DNA from: Pedosphaera parvula Ellin514
Lineage (GTDB): Bacteria; Verrucomicrobiota; Verrucomicrobiia; Limisphaerales; Pedosphaeraceae
Direction: 5' to 3'
NCBI RefSeq assembly: GCF_000172555.1
Contig: NZ_ABOX02000001.1
Span: 1 to 64,000, forward strand
Length of the DNA: 64,000 bases
The notes beneath the pieces were generated by a model. That model was not told the origin of the DNA, did not search any database, and saw only the letters and a program-made list of their open reading frames with translations. Below, piece by piece: positions 4,604 to 51,688 of this stretch. Each line of letters starts with the position of its first letter. Position 1 is the stretch's first letter. The position numbers and the translations under genes are program-made.

Positions 4604-4869
4604 TGTCTATACCGAATGCCGAGAGAAATTTGCGAATGGCAGGAGGGATTTTGGTTTGAGGCATCATGGCCGAGGCCGCAGGTGCTATCTGAAAGATAAC
4701 GGCAAGGCCGACAACGCCGCCTCAAATCAAAAGCACCCTCCCAACGAGTGATGAATTTCCTCATCGCCAAGGTCATGACTTTTTCAGTCTCCCCTTTGAT
4801 CAGGCTTATTGGCTCCTTTCATTCCGGTTCTTTTTTCGGAAATTAATTTTGGCATTCGGTACAGTTTTG

Positions 4870-5637
4870 TCAGGGAGTAAGTGCATTCTCCGGATGCACT
4901 TCTCCTATTTTTACCGTATCGAATCCAAAAGTCTGTGGTATCCGTCGAACTTGGAGTAGGGTGACCGAATATCCACCTTTGACCAGAACGTTTTTGAGCT
5001 CCTCCAGTTCCGATTCCTCGAACCGGTATCCCAGGTAAATCTCCTGCAAGGTTTCTTTGGGGAAGGGGACTTTCTGCGGTTCAGGGCCCGGTAAAACCAA
5101 TCTCCATTCCTCCTGAAAGGCCCAGACCTTGGACTTGCAATAGGCCAGTGGTTCCATTGGCACTTCGGAATATCGGATGGGGCGGGAAGTCTCAAAGAAA
5201 GGATGTTTGGCATCAAAACTCAGGCAAATCCCGCGATGATCCTCTCCATAGAGTGCCCACATTAATTCATTGTTCCAGTTCTCCGCTAAACAAAACATCC
5301 GCGAATGCTTGTGCTCTTCTTCAACGGCCCCTCTCCATTCCTTGTGGTTGCTGGGGTTAAACTCCTGTCGTAAGTCCGGCATTCCATTCGCGCACTGACG
5401 TTCTCCTGCAAATGTCTGAGGCTGCCGGGAAGGGATGGTTGAGCTGGCTCCCGCCAACTCTCTCCTGGGCTGGATGTCCTGCGGATCGTCAAAGTCGTCC
5501 GGCAGTGAGAAATAGAGGTAACCGGCTTCCAAAGCTTCCCTAGTGGCCTGCTTTAGCACATAGCCGTTTCCCTCCTGTTTTAGAATCGGTGCCCATGAAG
5601 TAAATTTATAGAGTTTGGTTGGAACTCTGTTCGCCAT
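4870..5637 (-). CDS. DUF2971 family protein
   Basis: The 255-residue soluble protein has the DUF2971 layout: LYKFTSW near the start, LYFSLPDDFDDPQD at residues about 40-53, MWALYGEDHRGICLSF in the middle, and FQEEWRLV near the C-terminus. The function of DUF2971 is unknown; members occur in accessory regions and near restriction or defence genes, but no such neighbour is visible here. It stands alone between a receiver gene and ppdK, transcribed away from ppdK. Confidence 0.75.
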   Translation of the reverse strand: MANRVPTKLYKFTSWAPILKQEGNGYVLKQATREALEAGYLYFSLPDDFDDPQDIQPRRELAGASSTIPSRQPQTFAGERQCANGMPDLRQEFNPSNHKEWRGAVEEEHKHSRMFCLAENWNNELMWALYGEDHRGICLSFDAKHPFFETSRPIRYSEVPMEPLAYCKSKVWAFQEEWRLVLPGPEPQKVPFPKETLQEIYLGYRFEESELEELKNVLVKGGYSVTLLQVRRIPQTFGFDTVKIGEVHPENALTP

Positions 5638-5831
5638 AACATCTAAAATTTCCTCTGAACTGCCCCTCTTTCAAGCGGGGGAAATTCCTTAACTTGGCTC
5701 CATTTGCCGATCCCCATCAAAACTCTCAACTCAGCCGTTGACACTTACCTTCCCTTTGTTACCCTCGCCGCCTCAGATTTTCGCGGTTTTTCCCCAGAAA
5801 ACTGAACGACGGTGTCCGAAAAACACAATTT

Positions 5832-8582
<2,751 letters not shown>

Positions 8583-10393: not shown

Positions 10394-10633
10394 GGCTGGA
10401 TTCCTTCGGCAGGTTTATTCGAACAATGTGTCGACGTCCTTCGAGCGTGGAATCGCCTCCGAAACTTCAACTCAAGCATATCGAAACCGCGCTTGGCCGA
10501 CAAAACTGCCATGCTCTGACTATGAACTCCTGTGTAATAAAGTGGCATGGGGTAATTCCCTGCTTCCGTCTTAACCTAAACAGGTTGCAGCATTATTCTT
10601 TCTTTGAGGCCAGGCTGCGGATATGCTCCTGTT

Positions 10634-42821: not shown

Positions 42822-45494
42822 TTATTTAACAGTGCAATTGGTCGTGGCAAAAACGCGTCGACCATCAGGCAATTGAGCCTCCGCTTCAATCCAATGCGGA
42901 CCTGCTTTATTAGGGCTAAATGTGAACGTTTGGCCAAACGTCGGAGCGTGATCCGAAGCCTCCCAAACAATTTGCGCGTTCTCGAGATCTATTCCCGGTG
43001 CCTGTAACTTCAGGATCAAGCGCTCTCCTGAAGCAATCCTTTGTGGTATCCCGGTAATGGTCGCGCTGGCGAATTTCCAGGGTTGATCTTTCAAAGGAGA
43101 TTGGGCCATGAGCCAGGCCAGATAGGCAAGACTGCGAGCTTGATTCACAATGACGAATTCCTGGTTCAGATTAAAACTGTCACCCCAGCGATCGTAAAAC
43201 GGGAAAGGCGCGACCTGATCACCGTCCGTTGGAAAGCTCAGTTCGCCCAATTCCTTCTTATAGTTATCCAGCCATCCAAAACCATCCTGTATGTTTCCAA
43301 GGGGAATTCCAGTCGGGGGAAGAATACGGCGGCTATTTTGTGCATACTGATCCACAATTTCGTGCTGCCTCATCCAACCCATCCCGGTTAGATAGCAAAC
43401 GTTGATTGGATTACATCCCTGCTCATAATTTAAATTTGACCAGATTGCCCGCATAAATTTGGGGCGGGGATCATTCATCACGGGAAAGTCCAGCTGGCAT
43501 GCCACAGCCAGGTCAAAAGCGGCATCACCTGAAAAATACCATCCGGCACTGCGCGATTGTTTTGTTTCTTTCGGCAAACTTGTCCCATACGCACTCTCCT
43601 CGGCGCGATCCAATTGATCCTGTGCCGCCGCGATGAGTTCCTCTTCGCATTTTGAAAGTAAGGCTGGGTCCAACCGCTCGCGCTTGATTCTGCCTGATTT
43701 TGCTGCGAAGGCGTAACTTCGGGTAGCACAACCATACGCTTCATAGAGCCGCCACCATCCCCATTTGCGCGTTTCCTCGGAAGCAGGATGAAACCACTCG
43801 CCTATCAATTTCTCATAAGCAGAATCACCGGTGGCGAGAAACATTTCCACTGCCGCCCATGCCAGTTCATCATCATGCATGAACTCGTTTCCATAATGCG
43901 TGATCTTCTGGTAAGCCCCGTCTTTTCCATATTTTGCGATGCCCCGTTGCAGGAAGTTCCAGCCTGCCTTCGCCTTCACCATGTAGGCCGCTGCCGCCTC
44001 GGGAAATTGTTTTTTGAATGTTGGTGAGGAGGCGCATTGGGCCAATGCAGCAACCGCGGCGGCAGTAACTGAAGTTGTCTTGGGCCACACCACTTGCGGA
44101 TCGCCATGATCCGGTGTGACGTCGTTCTCATACTCCCGTTCTCGCGGATACACGAGGAAAAAGAAACCGCCATCGTCGTCCTGCATTTTCGCAAGGAAAT
44201 CGGCCTCCCATTTCGCTTCCTGTAAAATATCGCTCCTGCCATCACCGCTCTCGGGTATCCCCAGATTGTCCAATGCTGCCACTCCGGGAAACGCATCCGC
44301 TGCCAGGATGAGATGATGAATGAGTGCGGCACTGTTGATGGTGTACTTGCTGTAGTCACCCGCATCATGATGTCCGCCGCTGACATCGAGTTTGCCACGT
44401 TTAATAAAAGGGTACAATTGTGACTTCTCACCTTTCATTCGCGGAGCCGTGTGCCTTGCGTTTTCTTTTACATCCGTGGTTTTATCGGCCAGAATTTCCC
44501 AGGTGGTTTTAAAAGCCGATTGTGGAAAGGGAATATCCACGAGAGCTGTGTGACAGGTGCCATCGGTAAATCTGGTGAAAGGCAACGCATTGCTTGTTCC
44601 GCAACGCTGATGGTAGAGCCCCAGTGCATAGGCACGCGCAAAAGCCGCTGCCGCGCCATCAGAGATGGAAAAGGGGAACGAAGTGCCAAGACCCGGCACA
44701 AATAATTGATACTCTCCTGGCACCTTGTATTCAGAAAAATTTGCTTCCCAAACAGCTTGATAGGAACTGAACGGAAAACCGCGATCGGGGCGTCGTGTCA
44801 ATCGGCCTTCGAACACAGACTTTGACGTGTGGGCATCTTTCAAGGAGAACGTTGGTGTAGTTGCTGCCGCACCGTTTGTTGAGGAAGGGATTAGATCTGT
44901 GAGGAAGTTTAAATCCATTTCTCCGAGATTTCCGAGATAGTAACCGACCATGGCAGTCTTCGGGGAACTGGTCTGATAGCCTGTTTGGTTCACGTGAATA
45001 GCGGGACTCCAACGCAACGAACTAAAAACTGTTGAAAATGGCTTCTTATTCTCCCAAAGATGTTCATCAGGATTACTTACCTCCACCTTTTGATTATCCT
45101 TGATTGTAGTTGCGAGCTTTAAATAAAGGTCATTGGCGATTCGGAGGTCCCGCCTTTTCAGTGGCGCATAAAGCACGCGTCGTTTAAAACCGACAGCTAC
45201 CACCGATGCAGGTTTTCCATCAATTGTAACCACAAACTGTTTGGGAGTTGGCAAGCTTGGTTTACCGTTCAGATCAGCGAACGGCCACTGCTTGACTGGA
45301 GCCGGATCAGGATTTTTTGTCGTGATCAGGCTTATTTCGACAAGGCTCGGAGTAAGACACCGGATTTCGGTGTCTCCTGCGTGTGGAATAATTAACGATG
45401 GATAACTCTCAGCAATTACTCCGGTGGCTGAGTTTAGGAATAACCAAACCAGGCTGACCAGTCGAACCCAAAACATGCGGGTAAAATGCCTCAC
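42822..45494 (-). CDS. Secreted GH9 glycoside hydrolase (endoglucanase-like)
   Basis: The 890-residue protein has a signal peptide (residues 1-28). Residues about 30-300 include the CelD-type N-terminal Ig-like domain (VNQTGYQTSSPKTAMVGYY). The GH9 barrel follows: GGHHDAGDYSKY holds the catalytic base, D377 and/or D380, and NLNQEFVIVN holds the proton donor E779. FFFLVYPRERE and YGNEFMHDDELAWAAVEM are typical GH9 strands. The C-terminal part (about 815-890) is an Ig-like cap. GH9 enzymes cut beta-1,4-glucans; acting on its own exopolysaccharide or on plant cellulose are both possible. Its sequence is closely related to the C-terminal part of the 2196-residue protein. Confidence 0.92.
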   Translation of the reverse strand: MRHFTRMFWVRLVSLVWLFLNSATGVIAESYPSLIIPHAGDTEIRCLTPSLVEISLITTKNPDPAPVKQWPFADLNGKPSLPTPKQFVVTIDGKPASVVAVGFKRRVLYAPLKRRDLRIANDLYLKLATTIKDNQKVEVSNPDEHLWENKKPFSTVFSSLRWSPAIHVNQTGYQTSSPKTAMVGYYLGNLGEMDLNFLTDLIPSSTNGAAATTPTFSLKDAHTSKSVFEGRLTRRPDRGFPFSSYQAVWEANFSEYKVPGEYQLFVPGLGTSFPFSISDGAAAAFARAYALGLYHQRCGTSNALPFTRFTDGTCHTALVDIPFPQSAFKTTWEILADKTTDVKENARHTAPRMKGEKSQLYPFIKRGKLDVSGGHHDAGDYSKYTINSAALIHHLILAADAFPGVAALDNLGIPESGDGRSDILQEAKWEADFLAKMQDDDGGFFFLVYPREREYENDVTPDHGDPQVVWPKTTSVTAAAVAALAQCASSPTFKKQFPEAAAAYMVKAKAGWNFLQRGIAKYGKDGAYQKITHYGNEFMHDDELAWAAVEMFLATGDSAYEKLIGEWFHPASEETRKWGWWRLYEAYGCATRSYAFAAKSGRIKRERLDPALLSKCEEELIAAAQDQLDRAEESAYGTSLPKETKQSRSAGWYFSGDAAFDLAVACQLDFPVMNDPRPKFMRAIWSNLNYEQGCNPINVCYLTGMGWMRQHEIVDQYAQNSRRILPPTGIPLGNIQDGFGWLDNYKKELGELSFPTDGDQVAPFPFYDRWGDSFNLNQEFVIVNQARSLAYLAWLMAQSPLKDQPWKFASATITGIPQRIASGERLILKLQAPGIDLENAQIVWEASDHAPTFGQTFTFSPNKAGPHWIEAEAQLPDGRRVFATTNCTVK

Positions 45495-46002
45495 CCAATC
45501 TGGTTATGCAAACGTAGCCATTTATGAAGAGGTTATATAATCGGTAGGGTTTCACCCCATGTTTACCAAGCCTTAAACGTAGGATTATCTGCATCATTTT
45601 AACCACTAATGTGGTGAAATGCTTAATGGGCGATTGGAAGCAATCGGAAGCTCTGCTCTCTGCCGCGAAGACTGAAATTAGCACTGTCCTAAGCGAAGCA
45701 CTTTTTCACGTCCTGGGAATTTGTTCATATTTGTTATGATACAGAATGCAGGAAATAGAAGAGTCAAACCTCATGAGCATGGTTTTGAGGGATTAACTCC
45801 TGCGCATCAATCGGAAGACCGCTTTTTAAATCCGATCCCTGGCTTGTGACCAGTCTTTGAGACTATGGGGGCTGGAGAGCAAACACTGTGAGCAACTCGG
45901 CCACTCTAAACGCAGTCCCGAATAGTGGCAGGCATGCTGTGTGTGGGGGAGCGGGTTTCGAGAGTTCGGGAATCAATTTTTGTAAACTGGAGAGAGGATG
46001 GC
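45495..46002. promoter_or_regulatory. Region between the GH9 gene and the Rsb-like cassette, with a GGGT-N3-ACCCC element
   Basis: 508 bases between divergent genes. At 45547-45558 lies GGGT-ttc-ACCCC, about 55 bases upstream of the GH9 start. No RsbR/RsbS (STAS) gene is present where stressosome operons would carry them, ahead of rsbT. A short frame from GTG 45888 encodes nothing recognisable. Confidence 0.3.
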
Positions 46003-46446
46003 ATGGCAAGTGCAGCACGAGTGGAAATCACCACGTCGCTCGACATTGTGAATGCGCGGCAAAAAAGCCGTGCTCTCGCACAGGAACTGGGGTTTGCCGG
46101 GAGTGAAATAACTTTGATCACAGCCGCGGTTTCCGAAGTGGCCAGAAATATTCTGGAATATGCCCGCCAGGGTGAGCTGGTTTTTGAACGTCTGGAGAGC
46201 GGCGCGAAGAAAGGTCTGAAAATTGTAGCCCGCGATCAGGGCCCAGGCATTCCTGACATAGAACAAGCGATGCAATATGGCTACTCGACGCGCGACGGTG
46301 GAGCGGGCGTCGGATTGCCAGGGGCCAGGTGGTTGATGGATGAATTTGCGATCAAGTCAACGGTCGGCAAGGGAACAGTTATCACGATGAAAAAGTGGGC
46401 AAATCAACTTGGCTACCAAACCAACCAGAGAAATTTCCGGGATTGA
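46003..46446 (+). CDS. rsbT: RsbT-like switch kinase / anti-sigma-type ATPase
   Basis: The 147-residue protein closely follows Bacillus RsbT: IVNARQKSRALAQELGF, N-box SEVARNILEYA with N49, G1 DQGPGIPDI with D78 and the glycine-rich lid STRDGGAGVGLPGARWLMDEF. RsbT phosphorylates RsbR/RsbS in stressosomes and activates RsbU by binding its N-terminal domain. GAGAGG precedes the ATG at 46003. Here no RsbS or RsbR is visible. The next gene overlaps by 38 bases, and a kinase carrying an RsbU-like N-terminal domain follows, which suggests RsbT targets that kinase. Confidence 0.9.
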   Translation: MASAARVEITTSLDIVNARQKSRALAQELGFAGSEITLITAAVSEVARNILEYARQGELVFERLESGAKKGLKIVARDQGPGIPDIEQAMQYGYSTRDGGAGVGLPGARWLMDEFAIKSTVGKGTVITMKKWANQLGYQTNQRNFRD

Positions 46447-47038
46447 GTGGGGTGTGGCAATCAAACCGGCGCCCGGTCGCGCCGTTTCCGGGGATGCCTA
46501 TCTGGTGCACGTGCAGCAGGATCGGGCATTGCTGGCCGTGGTGGATGGCCTGGGTCTGGGCAGCGAGGCAGTGATTGCCGCTAATACGGCCGTTTCGATT
46601 TTAAGGAAGTATGCAAATGATACAGTTGTTTCGCTGTTCAACCGTTGTCACCGCAGCCTCATGATGTCTCGCGGCGCCGTCATGACCGTGGCTTGTTTGG
46701 ATTTAAACACATTAACTGCGACCTGGCTGGGCGTGGGAAATGTGGAGGCGATATTATTGAGAGCCGACCCGGCTGTTGTTCCTTCTGTTGAACGCCTGCA
46801 GTTGCATGGCGGCCTCGTTGGCTATCAGATGCCCATATTGCGTTCCCGGAACATCTTGGTTCGCCAAAACGACCTGCTGGTGATCACGAGTGATGGCATC
46901 GTGGGGGATCCCTCAGCGGATATCCCGCGAGGCGAACCTGTCCAGAAGATTGCTGATTATGTTCTCCAAAAGCATTACCAGGGCAACGATGACGCGCTTG
47001 TCCTCGTCGCCCGTTACGTGGGGAGCGCCCATGAATAA
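46409..47038 (+). CDS. RsbX-like PP2C serine phosphatase
   Basis: The 209-residue protein begins with TTG 46409, inside the rsbT-like gene. It has the RsbX/PP2C layout: AVSGDAYLVHV, LAVVDGLGLGSEA, ATWLGVGNVEAILL, VITSDGIVGDP and GNDDALVLVARY. The aspartates of SGDAY, VVDG, TSDG and NDDA supply metal ligands. RsbX resets stressosomes by removing phosphate from RsbR/RsbS. It would complement the RsbT-like kinase here, though no substrate protein is in the window. Confidence 0.88.
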   Translation: MATKPTREISGIEWGVAIKPAPGRAVSGDAYLVHVQQDRALLAVVDGLGLGSEAVIAANTAVSILRKYANDTVVSLFNRCHRSLMMSRGAVMTVACLDLNTLTATWLGVGNVEAILLRADPAVVPSVERLQLHGGLVGYQMPILRSRNILVRQNDLLVITSDGIVGDPSADIPRGEPVQKIADYVLQKHYQGNDDALVLVARYVGSAHE

Positions 47039-48179
47039 GCAATTCAATGGTATTTGCCAGCAGTACGTGGCTGCACTCCGGAGATATCTGGTGGAAAATG
47101 ATGAGTCTGCCCTTAGTGAAGCCTATGAATTAGGACGGAAAACGATTTCCGATGGTCTGGGGGTGATTGACATGGCCAAAATTCACGAAGAGGTGCTCCT
47201 CGGGTTGTTGCCCAAGACGAATGCCCCATTTGAAACTCTGCAGCTTGCGAAAAGTGCCGGGTCATTTTTTTCGGAATCCCTGTCTCCTTTTGAAATCACC
47301 CATCGAGGATTCCGGGACGCCAATCGTTCATTACGCAAGGCCAACGCAGATTTGGAAGACCGCAACCAGGCATTGGCCATTGCCAATGGAAACCTGAAAC
47401 GGGAAATCGAGGAACGCAAGCGCGCAGAACGCGAATTGCGCGAAAGTGAGGAGCACTATCGTATTCTCTTCAACCAGGCCCGGCTCATGCAGGAAAATCT
47501 TCGCCACCTTTCCAGCCAGGTTCTGCACGTTCAGGAGGAGGAGCGTAAAAGAATTAGTCGCGAATTGCACGATGAAGTCGGTCAGGCATTGACGGCCGTC
47601 AATGTCAGTCTTGCGCTTTTAAAGAATGCCATCGATATCAAAAACGTGGAGCTGCGGAACAAGATCACTGATACGCAAAAGCTCCTCGAGCAAACCATGG
47701 AATCGGTGCATGCGTTTTCAAGAGAGCTGCGCCCGGCCATGCTGGATGACCTGGGGCTTATACCCACGTTGCGCTCTTTCGTGAAAAGCTTTGCCAGGCG
47801 GACTGGCATTCAGGTTTCCTTCTGGGCCACCGATGCGGTGGAGAAACTCGCGATCGATCAGAAGACCGTGCTTTATCGTGTCGGCCAGGAAAGCCTGACC
47901 AATATTGCCAAACACGCGCACGCATCCCACGGCGCGGTCACGATTCGGAAAAGCAAAAATGGTTTCGCTATGGAGATCAAGGATAATGGGAAATCCTTCC
48001 AGGTCGACCAGAAGATAGCCCTCAAAGGAAAGAACCGGCTGGGGTTGTTAGGTATCCAGGAGCGGGTAAAACTTGCGGACGGTGAGTTCAAGGTTGAGTC
48101 TACACCAGGCAAAGGAACCAAGTTATTAGTTTGGATTCCCATGAATGGAAGTAATGGGCTGATAACGAGGAGAATTTAA
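47031..48179 (+). CDS. Histidine kinase with RsbU-like N-terminal domain
   Basis: The start at 47031 overlaps the preceding stop and has GGGGAG just upstream, giving 382 residues. Residues 1-85 resemble the RsbT-binding N-terminal domain of RsbU (YVAALRRYLVENDESALSEA, ELGRKTISDGLGVIDMAKIHEE). Residues about 95-165 form a coiled coil. The NarL-type HisKA_3 domain has H180 in ISRELHDEVGQALTAV, and the ATPase domain has ESLTNIAKHAHA and GLLGIQER. No membrane segment, so it is cytoplasmic. This kinase probably phosphorylates the response regulator encoded next. RsbT may control it by binding residues 1-85; that is inference from the domain. Confidence 0.88.
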   Translation: MNKQFNGICQQYVAALRRYLVENDESALSEAYELGRKTISDGLGVIDMAKIHEEVLLGLLPKTNAPFETLQLAKSAGSFFSESLSPFEITHRGFRDANRSLRKANADLEDRNQALAIANGNLKREIEERKRAERELRESEEHYRILFNQARLMQENLRHLSSQVLHVQEEERKRISRELHDEVGQALTAVNVSLALLKNAIDIKNVELRNKITDTQKLLEQTMESVHAFSRELRPAMLDDLGLIPTLRSFVKSFARRTGIQVSFWATDAVEKLAIDQKTVLYRVGQESLTNIAKHAHASHGAVTIRKSKNGFAMEIKDNGKSFQVDQKIALKGKNRLGLLGIQERVKLADGEFKVESTPGKGTKLLVWIPMNGSNGLITRRI

Positions 48180-48199
48180 TGTTAATACAAGGAGATCCA

Positions 48200-48910
48200 A
48201 TGATTGCAGCCTCAAATGCGGCCAATTCCGTGCAAAGAATAACTGTTTTATTGGCAGATGATCATACTGTTGTTCGGCAGGGGTTAAAGGCTTTGTTGAT
48301 TGTGGAAGGTGACATTGAAATCGTGGGGGAGGCAGATACGGGACGCCATGCTGTGCAACTGGCGAAGAAGCTTCTGCCTGACGTTGTTGTCATGGATATT
48401 GCGATGCCATTGCTCAATGGCCTCGAGGCAACGCGGCAGATAACCAAGCAGGTGCCCTCAAGCAAAGTGCTCATCCTATCTTCCTACAGCGAGGATGAAT
48501 ATGTACAACAATTAACCGAGGCTGGCGCGGCTGGCTACTTGGTGAAACAAACAGCTGCCAATGACCTTCTTAAGGCCATTCGCGAGGCATATAAAGGAAA
48601 CGCATTCTTTAGTCCTTCAATTGCCAAACGGTTGCGTGACCAGTGTCGTGAAGCCTTCGTGAGCGGCCAGCCGGTCAGGAAGCGTAACGATTATTTAACG
48701 ACGCGCGAAGCCGAAGTGCTTCAATTGATTGCCGAGGGCCAGGCCAATAAGCAAATCGCAGCTGAACTTTGCATCAGCATAAAAACTGTCGAAAAGCATC
48801 GTCAGCAGGTGATGAACAAACTCAACATTCATGATGTTGCCGGCTTGACGCGACACGCCATTTCCAAGGGCATTATTGAGAGTAACGCCGGGGCCAAGCC
48901 CATTCTCTAG
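48200..48910 (+). CDS. NarL/LuxR-type response regulator
   Basis: The start at 48200 has AAGGAG 5 bases upstream, giving 236 residues. The receiver has D20/D21, phospho-acceptor D66 (VVVMDIAMP) and K116 (GYLVKQT). The C-terminal LuxR helix-turn-helix (about 160-225) reads TTREAEVLQLIAEGQANKQ and SIKTVEKHRQQVMNKLNI. It should bind DNA once phosphorylated by the upstream kinase, and is the output of the cassette. The regulated genes are unknown. Confidence 0.93.
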   Translation: MIAASNAANSVQRITVLLADDHTVVRQGLKALLIVEGDIEIVGEADTGRHAVQLAKKLLPDVVVMDIAMPLLNGLEATRQITKQVPSSKVLILSSYSEDEYVQQLTEAGAAGYLVKQTAANDLLKAIREAYKGNAFFSPSIAKRLRDQCREAFVSGQPVRKRNDYLTTREAEVLQLIAEGQANKQIAAELCISIKTVEKHRQQVMNKLNIHDVAGLTRHAISKGIIESNAGAKPIL

Positions 48911-49109: not shown

Positions 49110-49658
49110 ATGGCAAAAAAGTCTTTGTTCTGCATGGTTGGCAGCGAAGCGCAAGCTTCCGAAATTGTTAATCAGCTTAAAGATTCCGGTTTTTCCAATA
49201 ACGATATTTCGGCCCTGCTCCCTGATAAGACTGGAACCAAGGATTTTGCGCACGAGCATCACACCAAGGCACCGGAGGGAGCAACGGCCGGGGCGAGCAC
49301 AGGCGGCATTATCGGAGGAGCCTTGGGATGGTTGGCGGGGATTGGAGTTCTGGCTATTCCGGGCCTTGGACCTTTCATTGCTGCCGGGCCGATCATGGCC
49401 GCTTTGAGTGGCGCAGCCGTTGGCGCGGCTGTGCTGGGAATTGCCGGTGCACTCGTAGGAATGGGAATTCCTGAATATGAAGCCAAGCGTTATGAAGGTA
49501 AAATAAAGGACGGAAATATACTAATTTCCGTTCATCTGGAGAATGGTGACTGGGAGGAGCGTGCCCGGCACATTCTTCAGGGTTGTGGAGCCGGTGACGT
49601 CGCCATCACTTCCGAAGTTCAGGTTAAAACTTCGGAGCAGAAACCAATCACCACCTAG
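49110..49658 (+). CDS. Glycine-zipper stress protein (general stress 17M-like/DUF1269-type)
   Basis: The 182-residue protein starts MAKKSLFCMVGSEAQASEI, a fold seen in general stress 17M-like proteins, then has a glycine-zipper membrane stretch (about 65-125) and ends with GDWEERARHILQGCGAGDVAI. Such proteins are induced by stress. A start further upstream (48876) would overlap the regulator gene and is rejected. The gene lies 199 bases beyond the cassette. Confidence 0.75.
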   Translation: MAKKSLFCMVGSEAQASEIVNQLKDSGFSNNDISALLPDKTGTKDFAHEHHTKAPEGATAGASTGGIIGGALGWLAGIGVLAIPGLGPFIAAGPIMAALSGAAVGAAVLGIAGALVGMGIPEYEAKRYEGKIKDGNILISVHLENGDWEERARHILQGCGAGDVAITSEVQVKTSEQKPITT

Positions 49659-49801: not shown

Positions 49802-50455
49802 ATGAAGGAACAACGGGTTCGCTTATTGAGTTTTGGGCAAAGAACCATGCTTCTGAGCAGTCTGCTGATTCCGTTAATTCTGACGTCGGCCTGCCGGGAC
49901 GGTTCGAATCGCCCACTGTCAACGATATCCTCGACTGAAACCGTCGTTCTCAATAATTCCTCCAGCATTGCTTCAGGAGCTGTGGGGGCTGACCTCAAAG
50001 GCAACGAGACGGTCTTTGCATCTCCGGTCAGCGATAATCAAGAGGATAAAGCCTCCCATCTTTACACCAGCGCTCCCGGTGCCTTGGAACCTACCTCCTC
50101 GAATACCGCGACACGAATTTATTCTGAATCCAGTAATACGAATGAGGTGAATCCGGTTAAAACGCCGGTGCCCACTGTAAAGAATGGGCTGGGAGCCGGC
50201 ATGGCATCTCAGGATGTGGGGGTGTCGGAAGCTGACCGGGCATTGGCAACCAAAATCCGCGCTGCCATGGGTCATGACCCTTCTGTCTCCCAGATTGGTC
50301 CAGAGGTAAAAATCGTGGTTGATAATGGAAAGGTTTCTTTGCAGGGAGCAATCAAGAGCCAGAAGGAAAGGAATGATTTCCTGAATTTTGTCCGAAGTAC
50401 CGAGGGTGTGAAGACAGTAGACGACCAGCTGGAAATCAAGCCCGCCGCTCAATGA
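49802..50455 (+). CDS. BON-domain lipoprotein
   Basis: A 217-residue protein with a lipoprotein signal (ILTSAC at residues 26-31). After a long Ser/Thr-rich linker, the C-terminal BON domain (about 147-217) reads KIVVDNGKVSLQGAIKSQKE and TVDDQLEIK. BON domains bind membranes or envelope. It is the second BON protein in the window, and its own promoter lies in the spacer where an imperfect GGGC-N5-ACCCC occurs (49753-49766). Confidence 0.82.
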   Translation: MKEQRVRLLSFGQRTMLLSSLLIPLILTSACRDGSNRPLSTISSTETVVLNNSSSIASGAVGADLKGNETVFASPVSDNQEDKASHLYTSAPGALEPTSSNTATRIYSESSNTNEVNPVKTPVPTVKNGLGAGMASQDVGVSEADRALATKIRAAMGHDPSVSQIGPEVKIVVDNGKVSLQGAIKSQKERNDFLNFVRSTEGVKTVDDQLEIKPAAQ

Positions 50456-50613: not shown

Positions 50614-51688
50614 ATGACAGAAAAAAACACAGCGGAAGTTATCATTATCGGTGGTGGAATAGCTGGACTATCAGCAGCCATTTACCTGGGCCGTGCTGAG
50701 CGTGACGTGTTGCTCCTGGACACCGGCAAATCAATGGCACGCTGGGAGCCCGAGGTGCAAAATTATCTGGGCTTTCCAGAGGGCGTAGCGGGAGAAGAGT
50801 TGCTAAGAAGAGGTCACGAACAGGCCGGGCGTTACCACGTGGCTGTGACGGAAGATGAAATACTGGAAATCGGCAAGGAGGATGGTCTGTTCATTTTGCA
50901 TGGAAAGGCTGAAAAATATAGCGCAAAAGGGCTGCTGATCGCCACGGGTATTTTCCATTTGCCACCGGAAATCGAAGGTGTTTCGGGATTGTCTCGGGCA
51001 CAGCATGTTTTTTTGCAAGGATTGTGATGGGTTTCGCGTCCGGGGAAAGCGAATCGCCATCTACGGCTGGGCAGATGAAGCGGTGGAATATGCTTTGGGA
51101 ATGCTCTTCTATTCCCCTTCAGTTGCCATTGTAACTAATGGAAAAAAGACACGCTGGAGTGAAAAGCACGCAAAGTGGATTGAGGAGTATAAAATCCCGG
51201 TCTTCAGACAGCGGATTGCGCAGCTTGGTCGTGAAGGTTGCCAGGTGCGTGAACTCAGCTTCGATGATGGCACCAGAACCGAAATAGAGGCGTTATTCGC
51301 CACCAGAGGTGACATCTATTTTAATAAATTGGCGAAGAATCTAGGCGCCGAGGTTGATGAAGACGGCCAGATAATCGTCGATCTGTGTCTGCGTACAACA
51401 ATCAAGGGGGTATACGCGGCCGGCTGTGTCACTCCCGCAAACTGTCAGATGATAATTGCCGCCGGGCAGGGCGCCACAGCGGCCCAAACGATTAATCGCG
51501 ACTTGTTTGAAGAAAGCCTCGCCACCCACGCATTGCGCAAATATCGAGCGGTTCAACTCGATGACCTGCAGGAGACCGGTTCCCCCAAGGACCGGCGGAC
51601 TCTCGCAGAGGCGACTCCGAGTTCCGAGGAAGGCTTGCTTGGCATCGGAATCGAGGCTGAAACACATCGTTTTGATCAAAGCGGATGA
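50614..51688 (+). pseudogene. Thioredoxin-reductase-like NAD(P)/FAD oxidoreductase, frameshifted
   Basis: Two frames together make one TrxR-like protein. The first (50614-51027) has the FAD site IIIGGGIAGLSAAIYLGRAE and ends with a stop at 51025-51027. The second frame (entering at about 50978 and ending 51688) contains MFFCKDCDGF, the CxxC disulfide of the family, IAIYGWADEAVEYALG (NAD(P)-binding GxG-like region) and VYAAGCVT near the FAD-binding C-terminus. Removing one T, from GTTT at 50980-50983 or the T7 run at 51008-51014, would restore one frame. The second frame reads DCLGHSMFFC just before CDG, as in relatives, so I favour the first site. It could be a decayed gene or a sequencing error. 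Confidence 0.8.

Follow-up and report, generated by a model that had tools for sequence, protein, structure and literature searches.

It is known that rsbRSTX modules occur in many phyla, that some of the proteins encoded downstream of them carry an RsbU_N domain and that HisKA and REC proteins form the end of some modules (PMC9237108). It has also been described that RsbT orders the linker of RsbU, and an RsbU_N histidine kinase has been modelled, such kinases being noted in operons with rsbT (PMC12143880). A stressosome operon feeding an RsbU_N histidine kinase or a two-component output is already in print in these two articles. Here we describe a cassette in a 64,000-nucleotide stretch of the Pedosphaera parvula Ellin514 genome (contig NZ_ABOX02000001.1, positions 1 to 64,000 of the forward strand; hereafter, the window), in which an rsbT-like gene, an rsbX-like gene, a gene for an RsbU_N histidine kinase and one for a NarL-type response regulator stand without a recognised sensor core (RsbR/RsbS). 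This absence, a glutamate that tracks rsbT, an upstream element and a link to glycoside hydrolase family 9 (GH9) are what is new.

With the sigma-B pathway of Bacillus subtilis (RsbR/S/T/U/V/W/X) the window cassette has in common RsbT, RsbX and the RsbU_N domain, but a HisKA_3 kinase replaces the phosphatase half of RsbU, and RsbR, RsbS, RsbV, RsbW and a sigma factor are missing from the cassette. The rsbRSTX two-component modules of PMC9237108 likewise place RsbT and RsbX by a signalling protein, in some cases with RsbU_N and in some with HisKA/REC; as presented there they carry rsbR and rsbS, whereas the window locus has neither and none was recognised in its genome. Gammaproteobacterial NreB, in the account of PMC12143880, combines RsbU_N, a helical linker and a histidine kinase with a proposed switching by RsbT, but it is noted in operons with stressosome genes, whereas the window RsbT lacks a known antagonist. 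In the Moorella thermoacetica stressosome/diguanylate cyclase system (Quin 2012, via PMC12143880) RsbU_N also sits on a non-phosphatase effector, there GGDEF and here a histidine kinase. Judged from titles and abstract openings, none of the open-licence papers found describes a stressosome or stress pathway of Verrucomicrobia; one that names both subjects deals with the Bacillus stressosome only. On the same basis, no description of the present variant was found among open-licence papers on orphan RsbT/RsbX or on a stressosome with BON or glycoside hydrolase proteins, and RsbT/RsbS with Acidobacteria gave no paper.

The initial annotation of the window had described four overlapping or adjacent genes at positions 46003-48910 and read them as RsbT-like, RsbX-like, a histidine kinase with an RsbU-like N-terminus in which HisKA_3 takes the place of the phosphatase half, and a NarL-type regulator. 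All this is confirmed here by the gene coordinates (Table 1), by Pfam and by matches to solved structures. The RsbT-like protein has a GHKL fold (Pfam HATPase_c_2, 43.6 bits), an RsbT-type sequence (48-55% identity to Bacillaceae-type RsbT by tblastn, the loci being among the best 80 of 584) and the R19/R23 contact face; on 15 NCBIfam models it scored highest with SpoIIAB, every score being under the model cut-off. The RsbX-like protein is a single-domain PP2C/SpoIIE phosphatase (SpoIIE by Pfam, above the cut-off), its nearest solved structures being 3zt9 (E 4e-15), which we take to be from Moorella thermoacetica, and RsbX 3w40 (E 1e-12). The kinase matched RsbU_N (PF08673, 39.5-41.1 bits, cut-off 25.5), HisKA_3 (56 bits) and HATPase_c (45.8 bits), the last two standing in place of the C-terminal PPM phosphatase of RsbU. 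Its residues 1-85 searched alone retrieved B. subtilis RsbU 1w53 (E 8e-4), and it is the sole RsbU_N match at E<=0.001 in the 7.41-Mb window genome. With the regulator (Response_reg 94.6 bits, GerE 69.2 bits), for which an ATG at 48200, preceded by AGGAG, is a likelier start than 48179, it makes up a two-component pair of NarL/DesK type: HisKA_3 with its His, HATPase_c, and receiver plus GerE. No RsbV, RsbW or sigma factor was found among the cassette genes examined, no genome-wide sigma-factor search having been made, and on these genes the cassette is not a sigma-B partner-switching system.

The sensor core was not recognised either. RsbS gave no match at E<=1e-6 in any of the five family genomes with rsbT. 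A query made from an RsbS of the order (source genome G056, 100% identity there; 70-81% in G021) found nothing in the window genome even at E 1. The initial annotation had also considered an RsbS elsewhere as an alternative partner of RsbT; none was found. The same query picks up the RsbR of full operons (E ~1e-8), and no RsbR-like STAS protein appeared in the window genome, where no genome-wide search with an RsbR query of its own was made. The five STAS stretches of that genome are neither RsbR- nor RsbS-like: two belong to small STAS proteins (C4, 102 aa; C44, 126 aa), each beside its own HATPase_c_2 and SpoIIE-type phosphatase domains, two to a WecG-type glycosyltransferase (C91) and one to an MlaE permease (C58). 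Accordingly, C91 was rejected as an RsbR-RsbS fusion. In this protein (L052, 5417-6913) both STAS stretches are C-terminal, and relatives also have frames, some 500-600 aa long, that contain two STAS stretches. By the searches made, the window genome thus holds no RsbR-RsbS stressosome core, and since RsbS (five genomes) and an RsbR-like STAS protein (window genome) are both undetected, release of RsbT by a stressosome appears unavailable as far as searched. The signal probably enters the cassette by some other route.

We surveyed the named RsbT loci (best 80 of 584 confirmed) for gene content. A full set of RsbR, RsbS, RsbT, RsbX, RsbU_N-HisKA_3 kinase and regulator was present in 22 of the 80, from Verrucomicrobia including Opitutaceae, Acidobacteria, Bacteroidetes/Ignavibacteria, Nitrospirae, a gammaproteobacterium, Rokubacteria and Eisenbacteria. 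Neither rsbR nor rsbS occurred in the stretch at four loci: L087, a Pedosphaera metagenome-assembled genome and the only one of the four with rsbT-X-kinase-regulator, L155 (Brevibacillus), L123 and L151. On L123 (2558-3964), a 4-kb actinobacterial contig, RsbT stands with a protein that combines RsbU_N with an HD domain as effector, which adds to the effector types known for RsbU_N here; at L151 (5935-7453) a deltaproteobacterial RsbT stands beside an RsbU_N-HisKA-HATPase kinase.

Of the 293 genomes of the window's order, 25 gave an rsbT match (E<=1e-12), 18 an RsbS match (E<=1e-6) and 46 an RsbU_N match (E<=1e-3). RsbT occurred without RsbS in G000, G001, G002, G005 and G007, which are all the rsbT-bearing members among the eight family genomes searched, and in G026, G045 and G260 (the last a weak RsbT, 34%). 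In the family the layout is a GH9 gene divergent from rsbT-X-kinase-regulator. The initial annotation had named a lack of co-occurrence in related genomes as a refutation, but the cassette genes do co-occur in relatives: the order recurs in three of the four family relatives having rsbT, the fourth (G007) showing a YflT gene after the kinase and no regulator on the contig, and rsbX is kept in all five rsbT-bearing members. G026 has GH9 divergent from rsbT-kinase-regulator, with rsbX absent; at L077 (G045, 4663-6084) GH9 is divergent from rsbT-regulator, and the stretch shows neither a kinase nor RsbX or RsbS. The full R-S-T-X-kinase-regulator order was present at 11 loci in 10 genomes of the order (L063, L025, L027, L067, L069, L070, L071, L073, L074, L075 and L076), with RsbR in two frames in L069, the regulator cut in L073 and no RsbU_N match in the L067 kinase; three further loci (L068, L072 and L086) are cut by contig ends.

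In an RsbT tree of 36 rows, from which five distant rows (L081-L085) were left out, the RsbS-less genes fell within a 20-row Verrucomicrobiota group (support 92/83) alongside RsbS-bearing ones, and the rows outside that group came from RsbS-bearing loci. Because the RsbS-less genes are nested in this way and the outgroup rows are RsbS-bearing, loss of RsbS would be the simpler reading; two changes are needed, and the tree does not distinguish one loss from several. The ATP lid resembles G[LM]GxGL in the RsbS-bearing cassettes of the clade (S-L-G-L-G-L in L025) and is changed in six of the seven RsbS-less ones, namely the five family members and G026, while G045 keeps it. RsbT identity was 65-79% in six pairs of the RsbS-less family (regulator identity 90-96%) and 78-89% in five RsbS-bearing pairs (regulator identity 89-94%). 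The altered lid and the lower conservation are compatible with the loss of one binding obligation. We do not take the lid as proof of a dead RsbT kinase, a loss of activity that sequence does not demonstrate; the lid of SpoIIAB, which is active as a kinase, is similar. A second RsbT-like protein lies beside GH9 in G154 (L082, 3619-4449), with its ATP-site motifs destroyed, R19/R23 kept by eye and no Pfam match.

RsbU E24 and RsbT R19/R23 are among the interface residues of the two proteins according to PMC12143880, which credits the E24 contact to Hardwick 2007. In a phmmer alignment the kinase E25 falls on RsbU E24. Among the rsbT-linked kinases of the order, all 17 with a detected domain have the equivalent Glu, as do 68 of 68 RsbU_N proteins of the named rsbT loci, Bacillus RsbU included (three of these repeat loci of the order). 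None of 23 RsbU_N paralogues encoded at rsbT-less loci has it, Arg being present in 13; some of these loci sit in genomes with an rsbT cassette elsewhere (G001, G002, G007 and G021). Since the sequences are related, these counts are not independent. R19 and R23 were invariant in 13 of 13 aligned RsbT, that of the window included. Because the Glu tracks linkage to rsbT, RsbT very likely still binds the kinase, and a contact residue that follows RsbT across kinases is now in hand.

An AlphaFold2 model of the kinase (12 sequences; predicted local distance difference test, pLDDT, 81; predicted template modelling score 0.38) showed three short helices and one unbroken helix, 66-200, running from RsbU_N into the kinase core, for which the best structural matches were DesK. 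A Foldseek search with the whole kinase was led by kinase cores, without RsbU among the 50 matches listed. The N-domain model (pLDDT 89) recovered RsbU 2j6z (probability 0.96) and 1w53 (0.94) at ranks 16 and 18, behind CorA chains and with nothing at E<=0.001; with E values of 0.4-0.5 for RsbU, this fold search is not significant by itself. The assignment to RsbU_N comes from the PF08673 score, the E24 contact and the four-helix bundle together.

The rsbT-GH9 intergenic regions of all five family members have one block in common, TAGGGTTTYACCCCATGTT, and TAGGGTNNNACCCCAT lies upstream of the cassette in each of them; the element had no match in 10,000 dinucleotide shuffles (2000x5). It is placed upstream of both genes, at 51 bp from the GH9 frame and 440 bp from rsbT. 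The corresponding region of G026 carries TGGGGTTTCACCCCATATA. Where rsbR is present, TAGGGTTTTACCCCAT occurs at no more than about 120 bp from its start in L063, L072, L074, L076 and L086, with weaker variants in L067, L069 and L071 and none upstream in L027 and L068. The exact core was counted in 18 chosen genomes, 15 of them with a cassette: there were 0-2 copies per genome, but 15 in G017, and one match of the reversed control. It stood upstream of the cassette in 10 of the 15, and 10 of the 13 exact copies of these ten genomes are the cassette's own. We believe that TAGGGTNNNACCCCAT is a likely candidate for the site of the regulator; a sigma promoter, which it may still be, was not adopted as an explanation because the element is palindromic. 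A regulon across the window genome was rejected, the extended element giving one perfect copy and nine with two mismatches (reversed control, two), and a further, weak site of the window, located at 10547 ahead of an ABC1-kinase gene, does not exceed chance.

On the basis of these data, we propose that the cassette represents a stressosome reduced to its output half, the sensor core having been lost, and we consider this proposal as a whole to be somewhat more probable than its negation. An ancestor with a full rsbR-S-T-X-kinase-regulator operon would have lost rsbR and rsbS. RsbT would bind the RsbU_N bundle and thereby order the single long helix between it and the DesK-like core, presumably switching the kinase; the kinase would phosphorylate the regulator, and this would bind TAGGGTNNNACCCCAT between rsbT and the GH9 gene to control expression of the cassette and, putatively, of GH9. 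As a guess, we favour a permanent partnership in which the activity of the kinase depends on the ATP/ADP state or the phosphorylation of RsbT, with RsbX working in opposition. The initial annotation, in which stress-released RsbT would activate the kinase directly, is therefore upheld in part: the identities and RsbU_N stand and a direct action on the kinase is likely from the sequences, whereas the stress release finds no support in the RsbS and RsbR searches. Genomes that keep RsbT and its receiving domain with no recognised sensor core separate RsbT from the stressosome and can show its own role.

Several observations weigh against this proposal. RsbU Y28 is Ser in the window kinase (phmmer alignment), and the loss of the Glu in the paralogues may belong to one clade, in which case 0 of 23 is a single event. 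The RsbS query gave weak matches to a 590-aa frame in G005 (E 0.019) and a 651-aa frame in G002 (E 0.63), and each of the five family genomes is a draft, with a completeness of 75-96%. The gene set is not strictly obligate, as G026 lacks rsbX and neither rsbX nor the kinase is seen behind rsbT in G045. The retained RsbX is left unexplained by the simple model, its usual substrates RsbR and RsbS being gone. Finally, five of the 15 genomes with a cassette that were searched do not have the exact element in front of it: G153 has a copy behind the regulator, G056 and G116 have copies elsewhere, and G026 and G154 have no exact copy.

The retention of RsbX together with RsbT in a family without RsbS would be accounted for if the histidine kinase were the substrate of both, RsbT phosphorylating it and RsbX, as the phosphatase, resetting it. 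Most of the GHKL residues of the N, G1 and GxGL motifs are preserved and the catalytic Asp of RsbX is kept by eye, and PMC9237108 proposes phosphorylation by RsbT of downstream kinases without RsbU_N. However, the lid is altered in most RsbS-less cassettes, G026 does without rsbX and, as the title of Kang 1998 has it, RsbT activates RsbU without kinase activity; we regard such a pair as unlikely. It is a little harder to believe that a stressosome input persists, with RsbT sequestered by the small STAS protein of C4 or C44 or by a very diverged RsbS. The genome does encode these two stand-alone STAS proteins, and RsbX, the RsbS/RsbR phosphatase of Bacillus, is kept throughout the rsbT-bearing family members, but each of the two STAS genes has HATPase and SpoIIE-type phosphatase domains of its own next to it, and a query that reaches 70-81% in G021 drew a blank in the window genome. 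That the cassette is a non-functional remnant on its way out after loss of RsbR/RsbS is very improbable: RsbT is less conserved relative to the regulator than in RsbS-bearing pairs, its branches are long in G026 and G045 and the G154 protein has ruined ATP motifs, but the regulator is 90-96% identical in six family pairs, the element is exact in five of five members, and the phospho-acceptor His and the kinase motifs are intact.

Across the 293 genomes of the order, the element search gave 357 copies in 91 genomes, against 40 in 15 for the reversed control (24 of these 40 in G123 alone). The element was present in 34 of 46 RsbU_N-bearing genomes versus 57 of 247 others (Fisher 7e-11, ignoring relatedness). 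It appears to track the regulator family and not RsbU_N, since 29 genomes with at least three copies show no RsbU_N match and the kinases concerned are of PAS type in G106, near a truncated RsbU_N protein, and in G057. In the recognition helix, KTVEKHR is found in the cassette regulators and at four element-bearing loci without rsbT (L034, L035, L193 and L195), and FKTVDKHR in regulators of G003, G006, G015 and G031, each with no exact copy. Helix and element thus appear to vary together, with exceptions: G026, G045, G154 and G282 have KTVEKHR without an exact copy (G026, G154 and G282 have variants), the second operon of G021 has KTAETHR, and the regulator of G111 (13 copies) has KTIEYHR. A GGGG-N3-5-CCCC pattern, chosen after inspecting the promoters, was present in those of 8 of 8 rsbT-less loci (shuffles: mean 0.7, maximum 4 of 8); seven of the eight have an FKTVDKHR regulator, and the contig of L031 ends before the regulator.

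In multi-copy genomes, 32 of 72 copies had a gene ahead on their own strand only, 11 on the other strand only, 8 on both and 21 on neither. Among 40 proteins behind the element on the same strand, sampled from chosen stretches around listed copies in relatives (some frames are perhaps not genes), there were seven BON, six PRC-barrel and one each of dodecin, DUF883, DUF2934 and AMPK1_CBM. In 77 other frames of the same stretches (80 sampled, three very long proteins dropped) PRC appeared twice and BON at most once (not among the 25 listed of 57 families). Tentatively, and with slightly less than even confidence, we suggest that the order has a general stress response without a stress sigma factor, in which a family of NarL-type regulators served by RsbU_N kinases would bind TAGGGTNNNACCCCAT and activate BON, PRC-barrel, DUF883, dodecin, DUF2934 and YflT genes, and that the window cassette is its sensor-less branch with the operator confined to cassette and GH9. 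This would provide a candidate operator and a candidate stress regulon for Verrucomicrobiota. RsbT would act with the kinases where a stressosome or a remnant of it exists; in other genomes its place would be taken by a PAS kinase or by a pseudokinase with a truncated RsbU_N architecture.

Truncated RsbU_N-HisKA_3 proteins occur at L029, L030, L031, L033, L034, L035, L036, L037, L038, L195 and L207, mostly directly before a full RsbU_N kinase and at loci without rsbT. They lack the ATPase domain (by Pfam in L034, L036 and L195, by length in the others), and 9 of the 11 have lost the phospho-acceptor His, which 12 of 12 full kinases compared keep. This conserved pseudokinase may stand in for RsbT.

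Table 1. Features of the cassette and its surroundings (window positions unless a locus is named)
Feature	Position	Strand	Remarks
rsbT-like switch protein, GHKL fold	46003..46446	+	R19/R23 conserved; ATP-lid signature changed
rsbX-like PP2C/SpoIIE-family phosphatase	46409..47038	+	TTG start; overlaps rsbT; catalytic Asp kept (alignment, by eye)
Histidine kinase: RsbU_N, coiled coil, HisKA_3, HATPase_c	47031..48179	+	8-bp overlap with rsbX; His180 present
RsbU_N (RsbT-binding) domain of kinase	47058..47219	+	E25 = RsbU E24
NarL/LuxR-type response regulator	48179..48910	+	Follows kinase at once
Conserved palindromic element TAGGGTTTCACCCCATGTT	45545..45563	+	Candidate operator of regulator
GH9 glycoside hydrolase (CelD_N + GH9)	42822..45494	-	Divergent from rsbT; conserved neighbour
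Second GH9 protein, 2196 aa	54449..61039	-	Other cassette flank
YflT-type stress protein gene	49110..49658	+	Behind regulator; 27.0 bits, cut-off 26.2
BON-domain protein gene	49802..50455	+	
Partner-switching operon of window genome	L053 4199-6201		Receiver-SpoIIE + HATPase + STAS
Partner-switching operon of window genome	L054 5413-7531		STAS + HATPase-GAF-SpoIIE

Although PF00759 matches number only 0-7 per genome in 25 chosen genomes, 16 of the 20 genomes with a cassette have a GH9 gene no more than about 10 kb away from it. The four without one nearby are G153 and G274, with no match anywhere, and G143 and G166, whose cassette contigs are shorter than 6 kb. This count leaves out the more distant RsbT genomes (G012, G069, G122, G171, G260 and G292), in whose RsbT stretches (L078-L081 and L083-L085) no GH9 match was found. 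The cassette links a stress switch to polysaccharide-degrading enzymes. The YflT and BON genes behind the window regulator occur in the same place in G001, of the same genus, where YflT is just below the cut-off; no element copy was found near the window genes, and for this reason they are not assigned to the regulon of the regulator. Further downstream, at 50614-51688, a pyridine-nucleotide oxidoreductase (Pyr_redox_2) is divided between two frames that overlap, one matching profile positions 2-119 and the other 129-287, a split that is a frameshift or an assembly error.

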